Origin: a bacterium
Lineage (GTDB): Bacteria > UBP6 > JAFGXH01
Length of the DNA stretch: 35,932 nucleotides
Direction of reading: 5' to 3'
Assembly (NCBI GenBank): GCA_027064085.1
Contig: JAMOQH010000131.1
Coordinates: forward strand, 1 to 35,932
The translations under genes and the position numbers were made by a program. Shown in pieces: positions 8,058 to 33,491 of the stretch (position 1 is its first letter; each line of letters starts with the position of its first letter). Below the pieces are notes generated by a model. It worked only from the letters and a program-made list of their open reading frames with translations, was not told where the DNA came from and ran no database searches.

Positions 8058-8082
8058 TAGACTATTTTTTTGGGAAAAGGTT
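8058..8082 (-). promoter_or_regulatory. Candidate ECF-dependent promoter
   Basis: On the minus strand AACC (8082 to 8079), 16 bases and GTCTA (8062 to 8058) resemble the AAC / GTC-type boxes of ECF promoters, directly upstream of the sigma gene and overlapping the pilX stop. A second AACCTTT copy lies at 8050-8044, close to the start codon. Autoregulation is plausible but unproven. Confidence 0.3.
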
Positions 8083-8860
8083 AATCTGAACTTGGAATAA
8101 TTTGTTTATATGAAGCAATCCCTTCTGCTTCTGCTATTAAACCATCACTATCTGCACTAGATCTTATATAAAAGTATTGCCAAAAAGCCTTATCTTCTCC
8201 AATCGCAGCATTATACCCTTCTGTAATAGGTATTGGATCAATAAATTTACTTGTTATAGAAGATTTACTTGCAGCAGTATTTACATCAGTAGCAGTTGCC
8301 TCACTTACTGTTGGATCAAGAATTGCTCCAACTTGGGAAATTCTTATAATATTCCATTTATAGGTAGCAATTTCATTTCCTGTAGAAGTATCTTTTAAAG
8401 TATAGTCTGAAGCAGTTATGGCTTTACCTAATCCATCTGTGTAACCATCAGGAGAATTAAAATTAGAATCTGTTATATTAGTATTATCATTTGCAGTAAA
8501 ATTAATTGCAACTGTGGTATCTGTCAATATGCCTGCTCTTGAGAAATTATCTTCTATACTAGTATCAGTTATTGTAGGCCTAACAACAATAAATAATTCA
8601 TCTCCATTACCTGCATTTAAAGGGATTGCATTTGGTTTATAATGCAAAGACAGCCAGTTTTTGGCTTCCATTACTCCTAAATTAGCAAGTTGCTGGGCTT
8701 GAGCAGATATTTTCTCATTACCAGTAATCATAATATCAGTTTTAGGAGACTGCATGCCAATTACAGACAAAACAGTTACTACCATCAAAAAAAGCAATGA
8801 AGTTATTAAAACAGCACCTTCTTCATCTCCTCTAAGCTTATTAATAAAAAAATTATTCAT
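8081..8860 (-). CDS. pilX: PilX-like minor pilin
   Basis: Type IV pilus minor component of 259 residues. The N-terminal region has a short positive leader, then EEG followed by A-V-L-I and a hydrophobic helix of about 20 residues (about 15-36). Then comes the M-Q-S and N-E pattern of PilX N-terminal domains (SPKTDIMITGNEK at about 43-55). As usual in PilX types, the Glu at mature position 5 is absent. The C-terminal part is a soluble, Asp/Thr/Ser-rich pilin head. It is last of four minor pilin genes, 8 bases after pilW, with a GAGG ribosome site. Minor pilins prime pilus assembly and sit at the tip. No pilY1 tip adhesin is next to it. Confidence 0.83.
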   Translation of the reverse strand: MNNFFINKLRGDEEGAVLITSLLFLMVVTVLSVIGMQSPKTDIMITGNEKISAQAQQLANLGVMEAKNWLSLHYKPNAIPLNAGNGDELFIVVRPTITDTSIEDNFSRAGILTDTTVAINFTANDNTNITDSNFNSPDGYTDGLGKAITASDYTLKDTSTGNEIATYKWNIIRISQVGAILDPTVSEATATDVNTAASKSSITSKFIDPIPITEGYNAAIGEDKAFWQYFYIRSSADSDGLIAEAEGIASYKQIIPSSD

Positions 8861-8868
8861 AATATCCT

Positions 8869-9540
8869 CTATTGAAAAGTTTTATTTATAAAAAATACTC
8901 TTGCAACAATTTCACTTCCTTCTAATTTCGTATTACTTTCCGTTATTTCATTTTCTTTAGTTTCTGCTTGAAGAGTAACCTGAATACTATCTATTTTATC
9001 TTTATCTGAAGGCGCACTATTACAAGTTGTTCCTCCTGCAACAGGATCAGTGTAGCAAGCTTTTATTTCAAACTTTTTTATATTATCTAAAATAAACTGA
9101 CATTTATTATTAGATTCAGGATCGCTAGTTACATTATTTGCACAAATATATAGCGAATTATCTCCCCCTTTAATAAAAGTTACTCTCTCCATAGTATTTG
9201 CTATTTGAGCAGGAGCATCAACCTTTCCAGTCAAGTTAGTATCTGAGGTAATTGTAAAGTAATTTGAAGCAATAGTTTCAAGACCAGTACATTTGTTATT
9301 ATCATCAACAAAAGAACAATTGGAAATACTTATTCCAGCTTTTTTGATATAACCTTTCATTATATTAAGAGCAGCTCTTGTATCTTGTCCAATTTTTATT
9401 ATCTTTTCTTGCCTTGAGTACAACAATTTTTGATTTTTAAAAGTTGTAAAAACTCCCCCAAAAATAACAATACCAATAAACATTGATATCATCAATTCAA
9501 CTAAAGTAAATCCTTTTTTATTTTGTTCTAAAATATTCAT
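8869..9540 (-). CDS. pilW: PilW-like minor pilin
   Basis: Type IV pilus minor pilin, 223 residues. The class III signal sequence is clear: a short leader ending KKG, cleaved before FTLVELMIS, with Glu at mature position 5 and a hydrophobic helix to about residue 30. The head contains six or more Cys residues (for example at SNCSF, NNKCTG, YICAN, NKCQF, ACYTD and TTCNS), so disulfides are likely after export. PilW rather than another pilin type is assigned from gene order (between pilV and pilX types), its size and the NQK-L-Y-S-R-Q-E-K segment after the helix. AAGGAT precedes the ATG. Confidence 0.82.
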   Translation of the reverse strand: MNILEQNKKGFTLVELMISMFIGIVIFGGVFTTFKNQKLLYSRQEKIIKIGQDTRAALNIMKGYIKKAGISISNCSFVDDNNKCTGLETIASNYFTITSDTNLTGKVDAPAQIANTMERVTFIKGGDNSLYICANNVTSDPESNNKCQFILDNIKKFEIKACYTDPVAGGTTCNSAPSDKDKIDSIQVTLQAETKENEITESNTKLEGSEIVARVFFINKTFQ

Positions 9541-9549
9541 AATAAATCC

Positions 9550-9993
9550 TTATTTACTTGTTATAACACCATAACTGTAAATTACATGTTTATTCATCGC
9601 ACCTGTACCTAGTAAATCTGTCCATGCAACTTTTATTTCAACAAAACTAGCATGGGCAGAAGCTATACCTATTTTTTTATTAGCTAACATTGGAGCAGTA
9701 TCAGCATTAACTCCACAAGTAATAGTATATTTAACTCCTTTATGAGTTATTTCTTTACTACTGCTTAAAGTAGCATCATCATCTAAAAGGCAACCTGTTT
9801 CAGTAATTACTTTATTAATTGGTCTAGACATTTGCTTTTGTAAAGCTGTTTGTGCTAAATTTTGAGCATATGTTAAATCCCCAGAAAGTTTAGTAATAAC
9901 AGCAGAGGTTGTTTGTAATTTTATTACACCAGTCATTCCAGCAAGCAATATAAAAAGTGAAATCATTACCTCTATTAAAGTAAAACCCTTCAT
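9550..9993 (-). CDS. pilV: PilV-like minor pilin
   Basis: Type IV pilus minor pilin of 147 residues. It begins MKG and is predicted to be cleaved before FTLIEVMISLF, giving a mature N-terminal Phe and Glu5. The ILLAGMTGVIKLQ segment after the start of the helix is typical of PilV. The short head contains two Cys residues that could form one disulfide. An AGGAGG site stands at ideal spacing before the ATG. It lies 8 bases after the fimT-like gene and 9 before pilW, clearly in one operon. The precise pilin class is inferred from order and the N-terminal pattern. Confidence 0.83.
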   Translation of the reverse strand: MKGFTLIEVMISLFILLAGMTGVIKLQTTSAVITKLSGDLTYAQNLAQTALQKQMSRPINKVITETGCLLDDDATLSSSKEITHKGVKYTITCGVNADTAPMLANKKIGIASAHASFVEIKVAWTDLLGTGAMNKHVIYSYGVITSK

Positions 9994-10001
9994 TTATCCT
10001 C

Positions 10002-10523
10002 CTAATTACATTTAGTTGCAGAACTATCATCTGTTGTACAAAATCTCGTTACTCCAGAAATAGATACTTGAATAATAAAATATGCAACATTCTCAGATTC
10101 TGCATCTGTTGCAGTAAATTTAAAATAAGTTGCAGAACCAATCTTCTTTATACCTTCCGAATTAAATTCAACTTCATGATTTCCATTAGAGCTAATATGT
10201 CCATTTTTGAGTTTAAAATTTTCACTCATTAAAGCTTTTAACTTAGATTTTACGAGAGTTGCTCTATCTCCAGAAACATTGGGACCATTATTACCTGCAT
10301 CACAGAAAGTAAATTTATTACCACTTGGTTTAATACAAACATCAATTCTTCCAACAATAGCTAAACTTCTTGCTAGTTTTATGGCATTTAATGCTCTTGT
10401 TGAAACAGCTTTTAAATCATTCTTTCTTTTAAAATAAGAACTAGAATTTGATGTTACAGATGCCATAATACCAATTACAGCGAGAACAACCATAAGTTCA
10501 ATTAATGTAAATCCTCTTTTCAT
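10002..10523 (-). CDS. fimT: FimT/GspH-like minor pseudopilin
   Basis: First of four minor pilins. MKRG is followed by the cleavage point and FTLIELMVVLAVIGIMA, the strongest type IV prepilin signal in the window. The next segment, LKAVSTRALNAIKLARSLAI, matches the FimT/GspH pattern of a conserved helix after the membrane anchor. The head (about 140 residues) ends with a C-terminal Cys pair region (FCTTDDSSATKC). GGAGG lies 6 bases before ATG 10523; the adjacent ATG at 10526 is an alternative. A longer in-frame start at 10556 would put the ribosome site inside the gene and is rejected. FimT of other bacteria can bind DNA during natural transformation; nothing here proves that. Confidence 0.85.
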   Translation of the reverse strand: MKRGFTLIELMVVLAVIGIMASVTSNSSSYFKRKNDLKAVSTRALNAIKLARSLAIVGRIDVCIKPSGNKFTFCDAGNNGPNVSGDRATLVKSKLKALMSENFKLKNGHISSNGNHEVEFNSEGIKKIGSATYFKFTATDAESENVAYFIIQVSISGVTRFCTTDDSSATKCN

Positions 10524-10552
10524 CATACTCCTCCATAATACTTTACTACATA

Positions 10553-10566
10553 GCAATATTTATTCC
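10553..10566 (-). promoter_or_regulatory. Candidate sigma54 (-24/-12) promoter for minor pilins
   Basis: Reading the minus strand, GG (10566-10565) and GC (10554-10553) are exactly 10 bases apart, the sigma54 spacing, and the -12 box reads TTGCT. The -24 side (TTTAGGAA) matches consensus less well. It sits in the roughly 105-base gap between the prepilin peptidase and fimT. It would start RNA near 10541, just before the fimT ribosome site. Pilin genes are often sigma54-driven, but this match is short. Confidence 0.3.
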
Positions 10567-10631
10567 TAAATTATTTGAATATAAAATAAATAATATAAAA
10601 TATTAAGTGATTTTAGTTATAATGTGTGTAA

Positions 10632-11483
10632 TTAATTACCTATCTTCATGAAATTAAACCACCAATTCAGAATTTTTTCTCCCCAAAATAGGTATTCCAA
10701 ACTCCCTATTATCAGAAATGGAATAAAAGGAAGTGCCGCTTTATCTTTTATAGGGTCATCATCAGTAACATCGTCATAAGGGACAGTTTGTTTCTTGCCT
10801 ATAAGTATCATTGTAATTCCAATTAAAGATGCTTGAAATACAGAAAAGAATAAACTAGTAATGGCCCCTTTTGCACCTAAATATATTCCAATTATAGAAA
10901 GAACATATGCGTCACCCCAACCAAGAGCATCAATATTTCTTATTAATTTATATAGTATTATTATTATTGCAATTGTAGCAAAGCCAACTAAGCCCCCAAT
11001 TAATGAAGTAAAAATATCTATATAAAAAATATAATTTAAGAAATAACTGATTGCAGGCACTAATAAACCAACTATAGCTAATAATATTAAAATTGAATCT
11101 GGAACCATCCAATGTTTTAAATCAATAAATGCTAACGCAATCATTCCAAAAACAAATACAAAGTAGTATAAGTATTCTATAGTAAAATCAAATTCTAAAT
11201 AAAGAGCTAAGCCCATTACACTGCCAATAAATTCTACAATTGGGTACTCTATAGAAATATGTGTTTTACAATTACGACACTTTCCTCTAAGAATTAAATA
11301 ACTTATTATAGGAATATTATCGTATGGTTTTATTTGATTTTTACAGACCGGGCATCTACTTGGAGGATAAACTACTGATAAGCCCTCTGGAACTCTAGAA
11401 ATAACAACATTTAAAAAACTACCCCAAGCTCCACCAAATAAAATAGAAGCAATAATCAATAATAAATTATATTCCATATTCAT
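10632..11483 (-). CDS. pilD: Prepilin peptidase / N-methyltransferase (PilD/GspO)
   Basis: Inner-membrane aspartyl protease that cleaves class III signal peptides of prepilins and N-methylates the new N-terminus. The N-terminal cytoplasmic domain carries two CxxC zinc pairs at residues 44/47 and 69/72. The catalytic Asp residues are seen in DLKHWMVPD (121 and 129) and in the GWGDAY motif (191), close to the family GxGD. About eight hydrophobic segments and a length of 283 match full-length PilD. The start ATG directly abuts the kinase stop (TAG then ATG). A second ATG at 11477 is possible. Its substrates include the four minor pilins downstream. Confidence 0.93.
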   Translation of the reverse strand: MNMEYNLLLIIASILFGGAWGSFLNVVISRVPEGLSVVYPPSRCPVCKNQIKPYDNIPIISYLILRGKCRNCKTHISIEYPIVEFIGSVMGLALYLEFDFTIEYLYYFVFVFGMIALAFIDLKHWMVPDSILILLAIVGLLVPAISYFLNYIFYIDIFTSLIGGLVGFATIAIIIILYKLIRNIDALGWGDAYVLSIIGIYLGAKGAITSLFFSVFQASLIGITMILIGKKQTVPYDDVTDDDPIKDKAALPFIPFLIIGSLEYLFWGEKILNWWFNFMKIGN

Positions 11484-21700: not shown

Positions 21701-21733
21701 AAAAAAGAAACATGCAAAGCATGGTTACTTTTT
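21701..21733 (-). terminator. Terminator of the lsp/lgt operon
   Basis: On the minus strand AAAAAGTAACCATGC, loop TTT, GCATGTTTCTTTTTT: stem plus U-run immediately after (and overlapping) the last lgt stop. It shares the AAAAAGTAACC...GTTTCTTTTTT frame with the terminator at 30657-30690. The A-run on the other side may also stop leftward or rightward RNA. Confidence 0.75.
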
Positions 21734-22619
21734 ATTCCAAAACTTTATTTTTTGCCTTTTTAGATAAGTAAATCATAAATCCCACAGCAATAATTACAAT
21801 AATTAAAGATATAAACTGTGATGTTGACAAAATAATAGCAGAACCTTTTGGTAAACCTAAAAAATCAGTTAAAGAGCGAGGACTCCATTTAAATAAATGC
21901 TTTCTTATACCATCACCTCTAAATATTTCAACAATAGAACGCTCAACAGAATACAAAATTACATATAAAAGCCCTATCTGCCCATGAAACTTCTTTTTAT
22001 TTCTAAATAACCATAGTATCAAAAAAATTATACTCACACCCAATGCCTCATATAACTGTGTTGGATGAATACTTAATGAATGATTTGCATGAACATCAAT
22101 AACACCTTTTAAAACTTCATCATTAAAAGGAATAGAATTTTGTGGAAAACTTACTCCTAAAAAACTATTTGTCTCATGACCATAACAGCAACCTGCAGAA
22201 AAACATCCTAGCCTTCCAATAGCATGCCCCAATGGCATACCCATTGCTAAAACATCAAGCAATTTAAAAGTATTTAATTTATATTTACGAATATAGTAAA
22301 CTGCCGCAGAAAATCCACCTATTAAACCACCATAAAATACAAGCCCACCTTCCCAAACTCTAAAAACAGCAAAACAATCGTTTTGAGTGCTACACATATC
22401 AATATAAGATGGTATATTTGTAATTATATACAATAACCTTGCCCCTATCATAGTCCAAATTAAAACAGGAAATGCCATTTCTATAATAATTTTAGGGTCT
22501 ATTTCAGCCCTTGCTGCTTCTCTTGTTATAAGCCATATACCTGTTAAATATCCAAGAGCGGTTAATACTCCATAAGAATAAATACTTATTCCAAAAATAT
22601 CAAAAAGATGATTAAACAT
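21732..22619 (-). CDS. lgt: Prolipoprotein diacylglyceryl transferase Lgt, copy B
   Basis: Inner-membrane enzyme that adds diacylglycerol from phosphatidylglycerol to the lipobox Cys of preprolipoproteins. It has 295 residues and about seven hydrophobic helices. The Lgt signature is GRLGCFSAGCCYG, preceded by the GGLVFYGGLIGG segment. HPTQLYE and ERSIVEIFRGDG carry further conserved residues. All core motifs are intact, so it should be active. It overlaps the other lgt by 8 bases and is last of four lipoprotein-processing genes. Compared with copy A it keeps the more standard HPTQLYE motif and lacks a long Cys-rich loop. It is probably the housekeeping copy, but both look functional. Confidence 0.94.
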   Translation of the reverse strand: MFNHLFDIFGISIYSYGVLTALGYLTGIWLITREAARAEIDPKIIIEMAFPVLIWTMIGARLLYIITNIPSYIDMCSTQNDCFAVFRVWEGGLVFYGGLIGGFSAAVYYIRKYKLNTFKLLDVLAMGMPLGHAIGRLGCFSAGCCYGHETNSFLGVSFPQNSIPFNDEVLKGVIDVHANHSLSIHPTQLYEALGVSIIFLILWLFRNKKKFHGQIGLLYVILYSVERSIVEIFRGDGIRKHLFKWSPRSLTDFLGLPKGSAIILSTSQFISLIIVIIAVGFMIYLSKKAKNKVLE

Positions 22620-23559
22620 TTTCTTCCTTATTTAAATTTTTAATTACAAATCTAGCCATAACAGATAAAATTACAACTATAATACTAATCCACTGAGAAG
22701 TACTGAAAATAAGCAAACTACCTCTATCATCACCTCTAAAAAACTCTATAATAAATCTAAAAATACTATAAAGAATCAAAAACTGTATAAACATTTGCCC
22801 ATTATATTTTTTTTTCTTTCTTAACAGAAAGTATAAATATAAAAATATTATAAAATTAGCTCCTGCTGAAAATAACTGAGTAGGAATAACAGGTAGAGAA
22901 TGAGTATGATTATGCATTAGTTCAGGATAAATTTCCAAATGCTTTTTAAATGCAGGAGAGCCACTAGGAAATGAGATCCCTAAAAAAGAAGAAGTGTAGT
23001 TACCAAAACAACAACCTGCCATAAAGCAACCAATTCTTCCTATTCCAACACCAAGGGCTAAAACGGGAGCCGAAATATCTAAAATTTTAAGAAAATTCAT
23101 TTTTTTTCTGATTATAAATATAGTTGCCGACAAAAAACCACCAATTATTCCACCGTAAAGAACAAATCCACCCCGTCCTAAATTAAATGCAGCTAAACAA
23201 GTTTGCTCATAACACTTTCCATTAGATAAATTACATATATTCCCCAAATCCTTTGCTACACACATCGCATCAGTTTTACAACCACCAGGATAATACTTTG
23301 CCATATTTTCAACTTTAAAGGGAGCTGTGCACATATTTATATAATCATGTAAATGTCCATCAAATAAAACATGAAAAAATTTGGCACCAATAAGAGAAAA
23401 TATAAATATTATAAGTGATAAGTCTAAAATTTTACTAGGGTCAACCCCTATTCTTTTAGCCTCTTTTACAGAAATATAAATTCCAATTATAAAAGCTAAA
23501 ATCTCTAATGTAAAATATGAGGATATTTCAATTGGCCATGTTAACAAAAAAGGGTGCAT
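22612..23559 (-). CDS. lgt: Prolipoprotein diacylglyceryl transferase Lgt, copy A
   Basis: Second Lgt, 315 residues. It has the signature GRIGCFMAGCCFGN, the RGGFVLYGGIIGG segment and FRFIIEFFRGDDRG, so the core is preserved. Differences from copy B: an extra outer segment at about residues 75-130 with six Cys in C...C...C...C...C...C order (MCTAPF, GGCKTDAMC, NICNL, GKCYEQTC), and VIPTQLFSAG in place of HPTQLYE. The inserted loop faces the periplasm and could be disulfide-bonded. The start overlaps the lspA stop by 1 base (TAATG). Likely a paralogue with shifted substrate range, or a partner of one LspA; this cannot be decided from sequence alone. Confidence 0.92.
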   Translation of the reverse strand: MHPFLLTWPIEISSYFTLEILAFIIGIYISVKEAKRIGVDPSKILDLSLIIFIFSLIGAKFFHVLFDGHLHDYINMCTAPFKVENMAKYYPGGCKTDAMCVAKDLGNICNLSNGKCYEQTCLAAFNLGRGGFVLYGGIIGGFLSATIFIIRKKMNFLKILDISAPVLALGVGIGRIGCFMAGCCFGNYTSSFLGISFPSGSPAFKKHLEIYPELMHNHTHSLPVIPTQLFSAGANFIIFLYLYFLLRKKKKYNGQMFIQFLILYSIFRFIIEFFRGDDRGSLLIFSTSQWISIIVVILSVMARFVIKNLNKEENV

Positions 23560-24083
23560 TAACTCATTTCCTCTTTATTTTGTTTTTCAACTTCAGCATA
23601 CTCCTTATGGTGTAAAATCCAATCTATTACAAGTAATCCCATACCTGTAGAAATAGCCACATCAGCAATATTAAATGTAGGCCAGTGATGAACACCTATA
23701 TGCCAATCTATAAAGTCAACAACAAAGGTAACAAAAACCCTATCTATAAAGTTTCCAATCATTCCTGCAACAACAAACGAAAGAGCAAATTGTAAAATAA
23801 CTTGTTCCTTTTTCAACTTTTTATAGTAGTAACCAAGTACAACAGATGCTATTATAGTAATTACAATAAAAAACGGTATCCTAAATTTAGTACCAAAGTT
23901 TCCAAACATTCCCCATGCTGCACCATGATTTATTACATAATTTAAATCAAAATAATCTTTAATAATGACAATTCTTGGTTTAGCTTTAAGAGCATTTGTT
24001 GCCCATGTTTTGGTGATTTGATCTAAAAAAATAAAAACAACTGAAATAATCACCAAAATTAAATATTTTCTTTTAATCTTCAT
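23559..24083 (-). CDS. lspA: Lipoprotein signal peptidase LspA, copy 2
   Basis: Signal peptidase II, an inner-membrane aspartyl protease cleaving before the lipidated Cys. It has 174 residues and four hydrophobic helices. The catalytic Asp pair is in NFIDR (Asp114) and in FNIAD (Asp141); the FLDQITKTWA N-terminal motif and NHGAAWGMF are standard. Between the two Asp residues lies a WHIGVHHWPTFN stretch identical in the other copy. Overlaps copy 1 by 11 bases and lgt copy A by 1. LspA is the target of globomycin and myxovirescin; extra copies can reduce sensitivity, and myxobacteria are known to carry several. Confidence 0.94.
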   Translation of the reverse strand: MKIKRKYLILVIISVVFIFLDQITKTWATNALKAKPRIVIIKDYFDLNYVINHGAAWGMFGNFGTKFRIPFFIVITIIASVVLGYYYKKLKKEQVILQFALSFVVAGMIGNFIDRVFVTFVVDFIDWHIGVHHWPTFNIADVAISTGMGLLVIDWILHHKEYAEVEKQNKEEMS

Positions 24084-24591
24084 TTATTTGCTCCATTTTT
24101 TTACTTTTATGCTCTTTAATTCCCGACAAAATAACTTCAAGACCAAGCAATGTCATTGCAATTACAAGTGATACATCAGCAATATTAAATGTAGGCCAGT
24201 GATGAACCCCGATATGCCAATCTATAAAATCAACAACTGCTCCATTTGTGAATCTATCAGATAAATTTCCACCTGCTCCACCAACAATTAACGGAAACGC
24301 AAATTGTAAAAGCTTTTGTTCATCTGTTAACTTAGTAATCATAAATAAAACTAATAATATTGCTCCAATTGTTAAAATCATAAAAAATGGAACTCTAAAA
24401 CTATCATGAGTATCAGCCAAAAAACTCCAAGCGGCACCTTTGTTTTCTCTATAAATAAAGTTAAAATACCCTTTGATTACTGTAATATTATTATTTGGTT
24501 TTAGATTTTTTATTGCCCAATATTTAGTTATTTGATCTAAAAATAAAACAATAGGAACAATTATTAACAAAATTTTATATTTTTTATTCAT
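24073..24591 (-). CDS. lspA: Lipoprotein signal peptidase LspA, copy 1
   Basis: First gene of the four-gene cluster, 172 residues and four hydrophobic helices. Catalytic Asp112 (GNLSDR) and Asp139 (FNIAD) are both present, with FLDQITKYWA and ENKGAAWSFL as the other family motifs. The protein differs at many positions from copy 2 outside the active site. The 65 bases coding for the second catalytic region, however, are almost the same in both genes. AGGGAG precedes the ATG. No clear consensus promoter was found upstream in 24592-24700, which is very AT-rich. Confidence 0.94.
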   Translation of the reverse strand: MNKKYKILLIIVPIVLFLDQITKYWAIKNLKPNNNITVIKGYFNFIYRENKGAAWSFLADTHDSFRVPFFMILTIGAILLVLFMITKLTDEQKLLQFAFPLIVGGAGGNLSDRFTNGAVVDFIDWHIGVHHWPTFNIADVSLVIAMTLLGLEVILSGIKEHKSKKMEQINED

Positions 24592-30755: not shown

Positions 30756-33491
30756 ATGCTAAATAAAATTAATTTAATAAATAAACTACCCTATTCTATT
30801 ATTTTTCTCACCTTAATCATATTTAGCTCTTGTGATAATACATCAACCGGCTATAAAACTAAAGAGTGTAATAATCAATGCTTAGAAACTGGTATTTTCT
30901 GTGATAAAGATAATAGTTCTGCAGTATTCAATTGTACACAAGATAAAAATGGCTGTTTTATCAAAGAGCTCTTTCAAGAATGTGAAAATAATAAAATTTG
31001 TGTTGCTGGCACCTGTCAAATAAAAAATTGTGAATCACAATGTATTACCGAAGGTTATTTTTGTGAAAACAATAATCGATATCAATGTGGCAATTTCAAT
31101 GATGACAATTGTTTAGAAAAAAAAGAGGCTTTTTGTGAAAATGGTTATAATTGCGTTATGGGAGAATGTAAAAAAGATTGCGTTCCATCAGAAGAAGTTT
31201 GTGATGGCATAGACAACAATTGTAATGGCGAAACAGACGAAGGTGTAAAAATCACTTTTTACAAAGATTCAGACAACGATGGCTTTGGGGATATTAATAA
31301 CATAATTGAAACATGTTCTGCTCCTGATGGATATGTTGAAAATAATAATGACTGTAATGATACCGAACACAATACCAATCCTGATGCTCAAGAAATTTGT
31401 GATGGAATAGATAACAACTGTAATGGTAAAATTGATACTGAGGACAATACCCTTGAAGATGCACCATTAGCAGATAACCAAAATGGAATATGCAATGGAA
31501 GCAAAAAAATATGTAATAACGAATGGATAAACCCTGATTATACAACCTTAAATAGTTATGAATTAAATGATGAAAGTTGCAATAGCATTGATAATAACTG
31601 CAATGGTGAAACTGATGAAGGATATATCATTACAAATATCTCATGTGGAATAGGTGAATGCTCTAATACAGGAAGACTTGAATGCCAGAATGGCCAGGAA
31701 ATTGATACTTGTACACCTAATCAACCATCAGAAGAAGTCTGTGATGGCATAGACAATAACTGTAATGGTGAAATAGACGAAGGGTTAAAAATTACTTTTT
31801 ACAAAGATTCAGACAACGATGGCTTTGGGGATATTAATAACACAATTGAAGCATGTTCTCTTCCTGATGGCTATGTTGAAAATAATAATGACTGTGATGA
31901 TACCGAACATAATACCAATCCTGATGCTCAAGAAATTTGTGATGGAACTGATAATAACTGCAATAGTGAAACAGACGAAAACTTCCCGGATAGTGATAAT
32001 GATGGAATTGCTGATTGTGTTGACAACTGTGTTTATACGCAAAATGTCAATCAACTAGATGCAGATGATGATAATATGGGTAATGCTTGTGATTGTTACT
32101 TAGGAAATTCAAATATTGCCATTCAAGAAATATGCAATGGTATAGACGACAATTGCGATGGTCAAGTTGATGAGGGAAATGTATGTGCAACTGATAACTG
32201 TGTTGTTAGATTTCATGATAACCATAATTACATATTCTGTTCTACAAATACTATGAAAAAATCATGGAATAATGCCCGAAAATACTGTAATCAAAAAAAT
32301 TATAACTTAGTTACAATAGAAACAGAAGAAGAAAACAATTGGATTAGAAGTGAAATATCAAATAATCATTGGATAGGCTTAAATGATTTAAGAGATGGCC
32401 ACAAATGGGAAGCAGGTTTTGGAAGAATCTGGAATACAGACCATGATGATTGGGACGAAAAATGCTGGGAAATAAGGCATAATGATACTAAATGGCATGA
32501 TAGATATTGTAGCAGTGATGTAAAAAGAAGGTTTATTTGTGAAGAAAATTTTAACTTAGGTGCAAAAAAAACCTACGCTAAATCCTGTAAAGAAATTCTT
32601 GATAATGCCATAAATAACAATCAGCCAACTCCTACTTCTGGTGTTTATTATATAAATATCGGAACTCCGGGTAACTTCAACCCCATACCTGTTATTTGTG
32701 ATATGGATACAGATGGTGGAGGCTGGACACTTGTTGCTTCATGGTTTTATGACTACAACTGGACTCTTTCTTCTTATTCAACATCTAAATTTTTTGGAAT
32801 GGCAACAAAGGATACTGTTTCTTCAAATTTTGGAAATATGGTAATAAATGATTTTAGAATTATAGCAACAGAAAACCTTGTATATCGTGGATTAGAAAGA
32901 AATGATGATAATGGAAATCCTCTTGGAGCAACAGGAGCAGATTGGTACTATCATTATGATACCCCTATAAAATGGAAAGAAGTATGGGCTCCTCAAGCAC
33001 ATAATGGAAATAATGAAAATGATTGTAGTAATGGTTGGATTTCTTCAGAAGTAGAAACATCAAGACAAGCTATAAAGAAATTTAATTACTCTAAAAATAT
33101 TAAATTTAATTACATAAATAATAATCATCATTGGAACAATATTGGCGATTGGAGTACTATCTATCAAGGAGGTGAAGATAGGCCTAATACATGCGATAGA
33201 ATTGCAGATTATTGGGGAGCATTAACTCAGGAAGGCATAGAATTTACTATTTACAATAATTCAAATGAAAACTATGACCCTATTGAAGACGGTACATTGG
33301 GAATACCTAGAGAAAACAACCATACTGAAATTACCGGACATGATATTAGTACATACTACAGTGCAAGAGTTGGTTATGATGATGATAATAAAAATGCCTG
33401 TTATGGAAATAATTCCCTTCATACTGCAACTTATAGTGATAACGATGAAAATATTGATAATTCTACTAAATTATGGTGGTTTGTTAGATAA
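30756..33491 (+). CDS. Lipoprotein with MopE, TSP3, C-type lectin and fibrinogen-like regions
   Basis: A 911-residue exported protein. The signal peptide ends in lipobox IFSSC (Cys near residue 26). Next come Cys-rich segments, then six copies of a CDGIDNNCNG-type motif (about residues 149-465) in MopE-like metal-binding repeats, with Asp-rich DSDNDGFGD strings. A thrombospondin type 3-like stretch (DSDNDGIADCVDNC...) lies near 413-447. A C-type lectin-like domain follows at about 480-602 (WNNARKYC, WIGLNDL, RRFICEE). The last 300 residues resemble a fibrinogen C-terminal domain: SCKEILDNA, GVYYI, CDMDTDGGGWTLV, ending in LWWFVR. It is probably a surface-anchored, calcium-dependent adhesin or glycan binder. 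Ligand unknown; the domain names are by pattern and unsearched. Confidence 0.88.
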   Translation: MLNKINLINKLPYSIIFLTLIIFSSCDNTSTGYKTKECNNQCLETGIFCDKDNSSAVFNCTQDKNGCFIKELFQECENNKICVAGTCQIKNCESQCITEGYFCENNNRYQCGNFNDDNCLEKKEAFCENGYNCVMGECKKDCVPSEEVCDGIDNNCNGETDEGVKITFYKDSDNDGFGDINNIIETCSAPDGYVENNNDCNDTEHNTNPDAQEICDGIDNNCNGKIDTEDNTLEDAPLADNQNGICNGSKKICNNEWINPDYTTLNSYELNDESCNSIDNNCNGETDEGYIITNISCGIGECSNTGRLECQNGQEIDTCTPNQPSEEVCDGIDNNCNGEIDEGLKITFYKDSDNDGFGDINNTIEACSLPDGYVENNNDCDDTEHNTNPDAQEICDGTDNNCNSETDENFPDSDNDGIADCVDNCVYTQNVNQLDADDDNMGNACDCYLGNSNIAIQEICNGIDDNCDGQVDEGNVCATDNCVVRFHDNHNYIFCSTNTMKKSWNNARKYCNQKNYNLVTIETEEENNWIRSEISNNHWIGLNDLRDGHKWEAGFGRIWNTDHDDWDEKCWEIRHNDTKWHDRYCSSDVKRRFICEENFNLGAKKTYAKSCKEILDNAINNNQPTPTSGVYYINIGTPGNFNPIPVICDMDTDGGGWTLVASWFYDYNWTLSSYSTSKFFGMATKDTVSSNFGNMVINDFRIIATENLVYRGLERNDDNGNPLGATGADWYYHYDTPIKWKEVWAPQAHNGNNENDCSNGWISSEVETSRQAIKKFNYSKNIKFNYINNNHHWNNIGDWSTIYQGGEDRPNTCDRIADYWGALTQEGIEFTIYNNSNENYDPIEDGTLGIPRENNHTEITGHDISTYYSARVGYDDDNKNACYGNNSLHTATYSDNDENIDNSTKLWWFVR
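31185..31427 (+). repeat. Internal direct repeat, copy 1 (MopE unit)
   Basis: About 243 bases nearly identical to 31725-31967, offset by exactly 540 bases. It includes an unbroken identical run of more than 40 bases around 31263-31303. The reading frame is kept, so a unit of 180 residues was duplicated. Confidence 0.85.
31725..31967 (+). repeat. Internal direct repeat, copy 2 (MopE unit)
   Basis: Second copy of 31185-31427; differences are scattered and many are silent (for example AAC/AAT and GTT/GTC). Indicates a fairly recent in-frame duplication and a likely spot for copy-number change by recombination. Confidence 0.85.

Follow-up and report, generated by a model that had tools for sequence, protein, structure and literature searches.

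Lgt and LspA, the prolipoprotein diacylglyceryl transferase and the signal peptidase II, are usually regarded as single essential drug targets. What, then, might a bacterium gain from encoding two of each, back to back, in one operon? The question is raised by a bacterial contig of 35,932 nucleotides, analysed over its whole length and referred to here as the window (contig C131 of a 195-contig, 3.65 Mb genome, 94.7% complete and 0.6% contaminated). Its minus strand carries the array lspA1-lspA2-lgt1-lgt2, in which successive genes overlap by 11, 1 and 8 bases, respectively. Coordinates and Pfam matches agree with the initial annotation, which had described two complete lspA genes followed by two complete lgt genes, overlapping by 1-11 bases. 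The features of the array are as follows:

24591-24073, minus strand: lspA1, signal peptidase II, 172 aa; the extra copy
24083-23559, minus strand: lspA2, signal peptidase II, 174 aa; orthologous to the one operon lspA of the relatives
23559-22612, minus strand: lgt1 (315 aa), prolipoprotein diacylglyceryl transferase; member of the first-in-operon clan
23188-23332, minus strand: six-Cys insert of lgt1 (approximate coding stretch, from the alignment; coordinates computed by hand)
22619-21732, minus strand: lgt2 (295 aa), prolipoprotein diacylglyceryl transferase; member of the general GCF..GCC clan
21723-21711, minus strand: weak terminator-like hairpin of 5 pairs after lgt2, from a hairpin scan

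A Shine-Dalgarno-like purine run stands shortly 5' of the ATG of all four genes. Terminator-like hairpins in the region numbered three, against 1.2 expected by chance; a promoter scan of the region gave no excess over shuffled sequences and was uninformative, and no known RNA elements or tRNAs were found in the window. A recent foreign origin of the array was rejected, given that all four genes have GC and GC3 values close to those of the adjoining dnaB and that the nearest relatives of lspA1 are the family's own LspAs. Elsewhere in the window (8081-11483, minus strand), judging from the translations only, several minor-pilin-like genes in a row, their products bearing a methylation motif at the N terminus, lie beside a prepilin-peptidase-like gene.

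Both LspAs look intact. They match PF01252 with 132 bits (lspA1) and 136 bits (lspA2) against a cut-off of 25, and both pass TIGR00077 (lspA), with 128 and 117 bits against a cut-off of 73.95. Mapping on Staphylococcus aureus LspA shows that each protein has the full set of 14 highly conserved residues listed in PMC6952399 (14/14 in lspA1 and 14/14 in lspA2), among them the catalytic Asp dyad, and Trp57 is also kept. Every catalytic and substrate-contact residue tested is present in both LspAs. All four genes of the operon are complete and apparently competent.

The initial annotation had all four proteins keeping their active-site motifs, and this stands for the LspAs but not for the Lgts, in both of which E. 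coli H103 is replaced by Tyr and N146 and E151 are replaced by Cys (residues mapped on E. coli Lgt, with a reference sequence that agrees with PDB 5azb over the part compared). Both Lgts match PF01790 well above its cut-off of 24.9 bits (181 bits for lgt1, 203 for lgt2); against the TIGR00544 (lgt) cut-off of 118.9 bits, lgt2 scores above at 137.4 and lgt1 narrowly below at 113.1. Each retains Y26, G98, G99, G104, D129, G142, R143, G145, G154, Y235, R239, E243 and R246, such that four members of the set essential in E. coli (Y26, H103, R143, N146, G154 and R239) are kept, namely Y26, R143, G154 and R239. The GRxGCFxAGCCxG form of the two proteins is also the form of nearly all related loci that we collected. 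In PMC13251419, this form is reported for distant Lgts and changes at H103 and N146 are described in other Lgts; N146A abolishes the function of E. coli Lgt, and a Leptospira Lgt with the same N146C change complements only poorly. Weak or altered activity of both operon Lgts is thus possible, given the Cys at N146. As for overall structure, the AlphaFold model of lgt1 (mean pLDDT 91) aligns with E. coli Lgt 5azb with a Z of 23.2 and an rmsd of 2.8 over 256 residues, which at the level of the model confirms the E. coli Lgt fold.

How unusual is the arrangement itself? Among 80 named loci collected with an lgt2-based query and counted by hand, lspA lies upstream of lgt on the same strand in 71, and in this Lgt type the two genes as a rule lie side by side rather than, as previously supposed, usually apart. 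Neighbouring lgt-lgt pairs occur at L103-L109 and at L170, and two lspA genes at none of the 80 loci. L103 and L104 are the loci of two genomes of the same family as the window's, G001 and G002 (the LspA of each locus is identical to that of its genome), both of which have lspA-lgt1-lgt2 with one operon lspA. The same order is found in the Myxococcota-like metagenome-assembled genomes at L106-L109, with ileS just upstream of the operon in L107 and L109, whereas in other families of the phylum a single lspA stands immediately 5' of one lgt, and further Lgt paralogues lie elsewhere. The lspA-lspA-lgt-lgt order that the initial annotation had proposed to look for in related genomes therefore recurs in its lspA-lgt1-lgt2 part but not in its four-gene form. 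The array is a new combination: no other sampled genome or locus showed all four genes in this form, and each half is known or recurrent. As an aside on nomenclature, L104 (DYRY01000011.1) is titled Anaeromyxobacter dehalogenans but belongs to the family of the window's genome (G002), and the name looks doubtful.

The window's genome holds further members of the pathway. A third Lgt, of the canonical NFxxxE type, is encoded at C22:30042-30779, a third and divergent LspA at C164:13959-14321, and Lnt is present as two pieces on two contigs. This third LspA belongs to a type II secretion operon, and all three family genomes carry such a divergent LspA-like gene, with gspF on one side of it and gspG on the other:

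L037:5549-6361 (G000:C164, the window's genome), minus strand: divergent LspA-like gene, in one open frame with gspG
L070:5902-6354, plus strand: divergent LspA-like gene of a family genome
L071:5700-6140, plus strand: divergent LspA-like gene of a family genome

In the encoded protein the two catalytic Asp are present, as are most of the LspA residues, whereas G54 and Trp57 are missing together with part of the extracytoplasmic region; the other sampled genomes gave no such match. Lgt, for its part, is expanded across the phylum (G003-G027): each genome has three to seven matches to PF01790, and many of these are divergent and away from lspA. Some are fusions (L084:967-4725, minus strand; L085:8546-12274, plus strand; L086:4938-7415, minus strand), of two types: Lgt with a two-component-regulator propeller and an AraC-type HTH (~1,250 aa), and Lgt with Lcl_C and an amine oxidase (825 aa).

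An operon with the two lspA genes next to each other and then the two lgt genes could be taken to mean that one block of lspA and lgt was copied, so that two matched lspA-lgt pathways arose, and joint doubling had indeed been the suggestion of the initial annotation. The histories of the genes argue otherwise. In the Lgt tree, two clans are split with a support of 100/99. The lgt1 clan comprises dispersed paralogues, the lgt that comes first in the operon in the family and in L105-L109, and the operon lgt found in other families; the lgt2 clan comprises the second-in-operon lgt and the single lgt of Myxococcota, Thermodesulfobacteriota, Nitrospirota and Nitrospinota, and includes lgt2 orthologues in G001 and G002 (100/99). 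Approximately unbiased (AU) tests rejected the window's lgt pair as one clade (p about 6e-30) as well as all six family lgt genes as one clade (p 5e-5). Because the clans split at such support and both constraints are rejected, the Lgt pair is, on phylogenetic grounds, one of ancient paralogues, inherited as a pair in the order lspA-lgt1-lgt2, and by the same trees their split long predates the family. On the lspA side, lspA2 groups with the lspA of G001 and G002 (support 95/88) and is thus orthologous to the one lspA in the relatives' operon. Related operons, moreover, have one lspA with two lgt, and copying lspA-lgt as a block would not be expected to give the order lspA-lspA-lgt-lgt. The Lgt trees and AU tests led us to reject a joint tandem duplication, and we regard the block-copy account, with its two matched pathways, as very improbable.

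The origin of lspA1 is less sharply placed. It falls outside the group formed by lspA2 and the relatives' lspA, and inside the phylum's group in a wider tree (support 86); it has no counterpart in G001 or G002, so that among the three family genomes it occurs only in the window's. When the window's two LspAs were constrained to a single clade, the AU test gave p = 0.067; with all four LspAs of the family so constrained, it gave 0.20, and neither constraint was rejected. By these trees, the doubling of lspA is an event separate from that of lgt. Tandem lspA genes also occur in G055 and G087, which belong to other phyla, and in a first tree the copies of each genome pair together. Within the class of G055 (58 genomes), ~33 of the 39 members of its family have two LspA matches within ~1 kb by hand count. 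The LspA trees place the window's copies with their own phylum and those of G055 with Myxococcota; at the moderate backbone support of these trees, the window and myxobacterial lspA doublings look separate.

Given the age of the Lgt pair, the question becomes whether its members could differ in function. Between TM2 and TM3, lgt1 carries ~45 extra residues (about residues 76-124) with six Cys in a fixed pattern, probably a disulfide-bonded module. In the alignment this insert is kept in the first lgt of L103, L104, L105, L106 and L108 and, with the window's own, in lgt1 of all three family genomes; it is absent from the lgt1-clan members of L107 and L109 and from the operon lgt of the other families of the phylum (f2-f4), and is therefore not essential to the lgt1 clan. 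Substrate choice by Lgt is reportedly set by arm-2, H103 and the head domain (PMC13251419). Because the TM2-TM3 arm, which lies in a region with this reported role, is not alike in lgt1 and lgt2, we infer that they may favour different prolipoproteins. The earlier proposal that the pairs are specialised for different substrates is accordingly plausible for the Lgts, with their ancient split and differing arm insert, but neither lspA1 nor lspA2 shows a tie to one particular Lgt. A bolder version, which we put forward only tentatively, is that lgt1 represents a subfamily of Lgt not described before, in which the periplasmic arm with its six Cys would select one class of prolipoproteins, providing two parallel lipidation routes from one operon in this lineage and in several Myxococcota-like bacteria, here together with a matching LspA pair.

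The predicted lipoproteins were surveyed in part, by a crude lipobox rule. In 291 kb of the window's genome 13 lipoproteins were predicted, at a density not above that in G001, and a second lipobox class was not found in these 291 kb or in 206 kb of G001. We thus rejected the idea of two lipobox classes, with the reservation that one class only was seen in a small sample by a crude rule. The large lipoprotein at 30756, which had been named as a possible client of the array, is one of the 13, has a normal lipobox (FSSC) and shows no tie to the array genes.

These observations also bear on plain redundancy, whereby the extra LspA, and perhaps one Lgt too, would add gene dose or be neutral, without a role of its own. 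Such an account fits with the presence of lspA1 in only one of the three family genomes, with the tandem lspA pairs of G055 and G087 grouping by genome in the first tree, and with a sampled lipoproteome of one lipobox type and unremarkable density relative to G001. On the other hand, lspA1 and lspA2 are only 46% identical yet keep every key residue, which suggests long selection on both, and the lgt pair is old and has been retained in several lineages. We consider redundancy a real possibility, if on the whole a rather unlikely one.

Another role suggested for the extra LspA was protection from a globomycin- or myxovirescin-type inhibitor of LspA, whether self-made or released by neighbours. 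According to a review (PMC8689077), producers of such inhibitors have extra lspA copies; in the same review, the tandem lspA1-lspA2 pair of Myxococcus xanthus is proposed as housekeeping and is not the protective pair. In the three family genomes (G000, G001 and G002), neither the NRPS condensation domain (PF00668) nor the ketoacyl-synthase domain (PF00109) had a match, with positive controls; the array's operon is without a transport or biosynthesis gene, and the inhibitor-contact residues and Trp57 are unchanged in both LspAs. Self-resistance to a home-made inhibitor was rejected because the genome has no condensation or ketoacyl-synthase domain, and self-protection is further unsupported because the inhibitor contacts of LspA are unchanged. 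Overexpressing a drug's target is a possible way to tolerance, and protection from neighbours' antibiotics through target dose is possible on this basis. Taken together, inhibitor protection in either form appears improbable. A side observation from the same searches is that PF00109 (FabB/FabF type) had a match in none of the three family genomes as opposed to seven of eight other genomes of the phylum, controls being positive; judging from these matches, the family may be without ordinary fatty-acid synthesis, a lack reported for some predatory polyauxotrophs.

On balance we favour, with moderate confidence, a lipoprotein-maturation operon in which two types of Lgt probably divide or widen the range of substrates and two LspAs have overlapping roles. 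Both Lgts would transfer diacylglycerol to the lipobox Cys of prolipoproteins, with lgt1 and lgt2 preferring different substrates through their differing TM2-TM3 arms. The two LspAs would then cleave the Lgt products in overlapping roles, contributing dose or substrate breadth, as has been proposed for M. xanthus lspA1-lspA2, and the pathway would be completed by Lnt and by the third, canonical Lgt encoded elsewhere in the genome. Two ancient Lgt clans in one operon constitute a natural pair for asking how Lgt selects its substrates, and also whether lipoprotein maturation splits into parallel routes.

Among known systems, that of M. xanthus bears out the statement that myxobacteria carry several lspA genes: a lspA1-lspA2 tandem lies in the lgt operon (Xiao and Wall 2014, via PMC8689077), and this review has the genes of that operon all active in E. 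coli lacking lpp. The likeness to the window's array lies in the tandem lspA, the single operon and the downstream lgt; M. xanthus has one lgt where the window has two. A protective LspA of the producer type, like M. xanthus lspA3 and lspA4, would be expected in the NRPS/PKS cluster for the inhibitor, and the window's genome is without a PF00668 or PF00109 match. Closer in gene order are the Myxococcota-like genomes at L106-L109 together with G001 and G002, which have the same order and the same two Lgt clans, with one lspA against the window's two. For the Lgts themselves, the nearest described parallels, in PMC13251419, are those of Leptospira interrogans and other N146C Lgts, which likewise keep R143 and R239 and have Cys at N146; the passages compared describe neither a pairing of two Lgt clans in one operon nor a six-Cys arm. 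Mycobacterium smegmatis, with MSMEG_3222 and MSMEG_5408, similarly combines a canonical N146 Lgt and an N146C homologue in one genome, as given there. In M. smegmatis, however, the N146C copy is presumed to be weak, whereas the window's genome has two N146C copies within the lspA operon and its canonical Lgt elsewhere.
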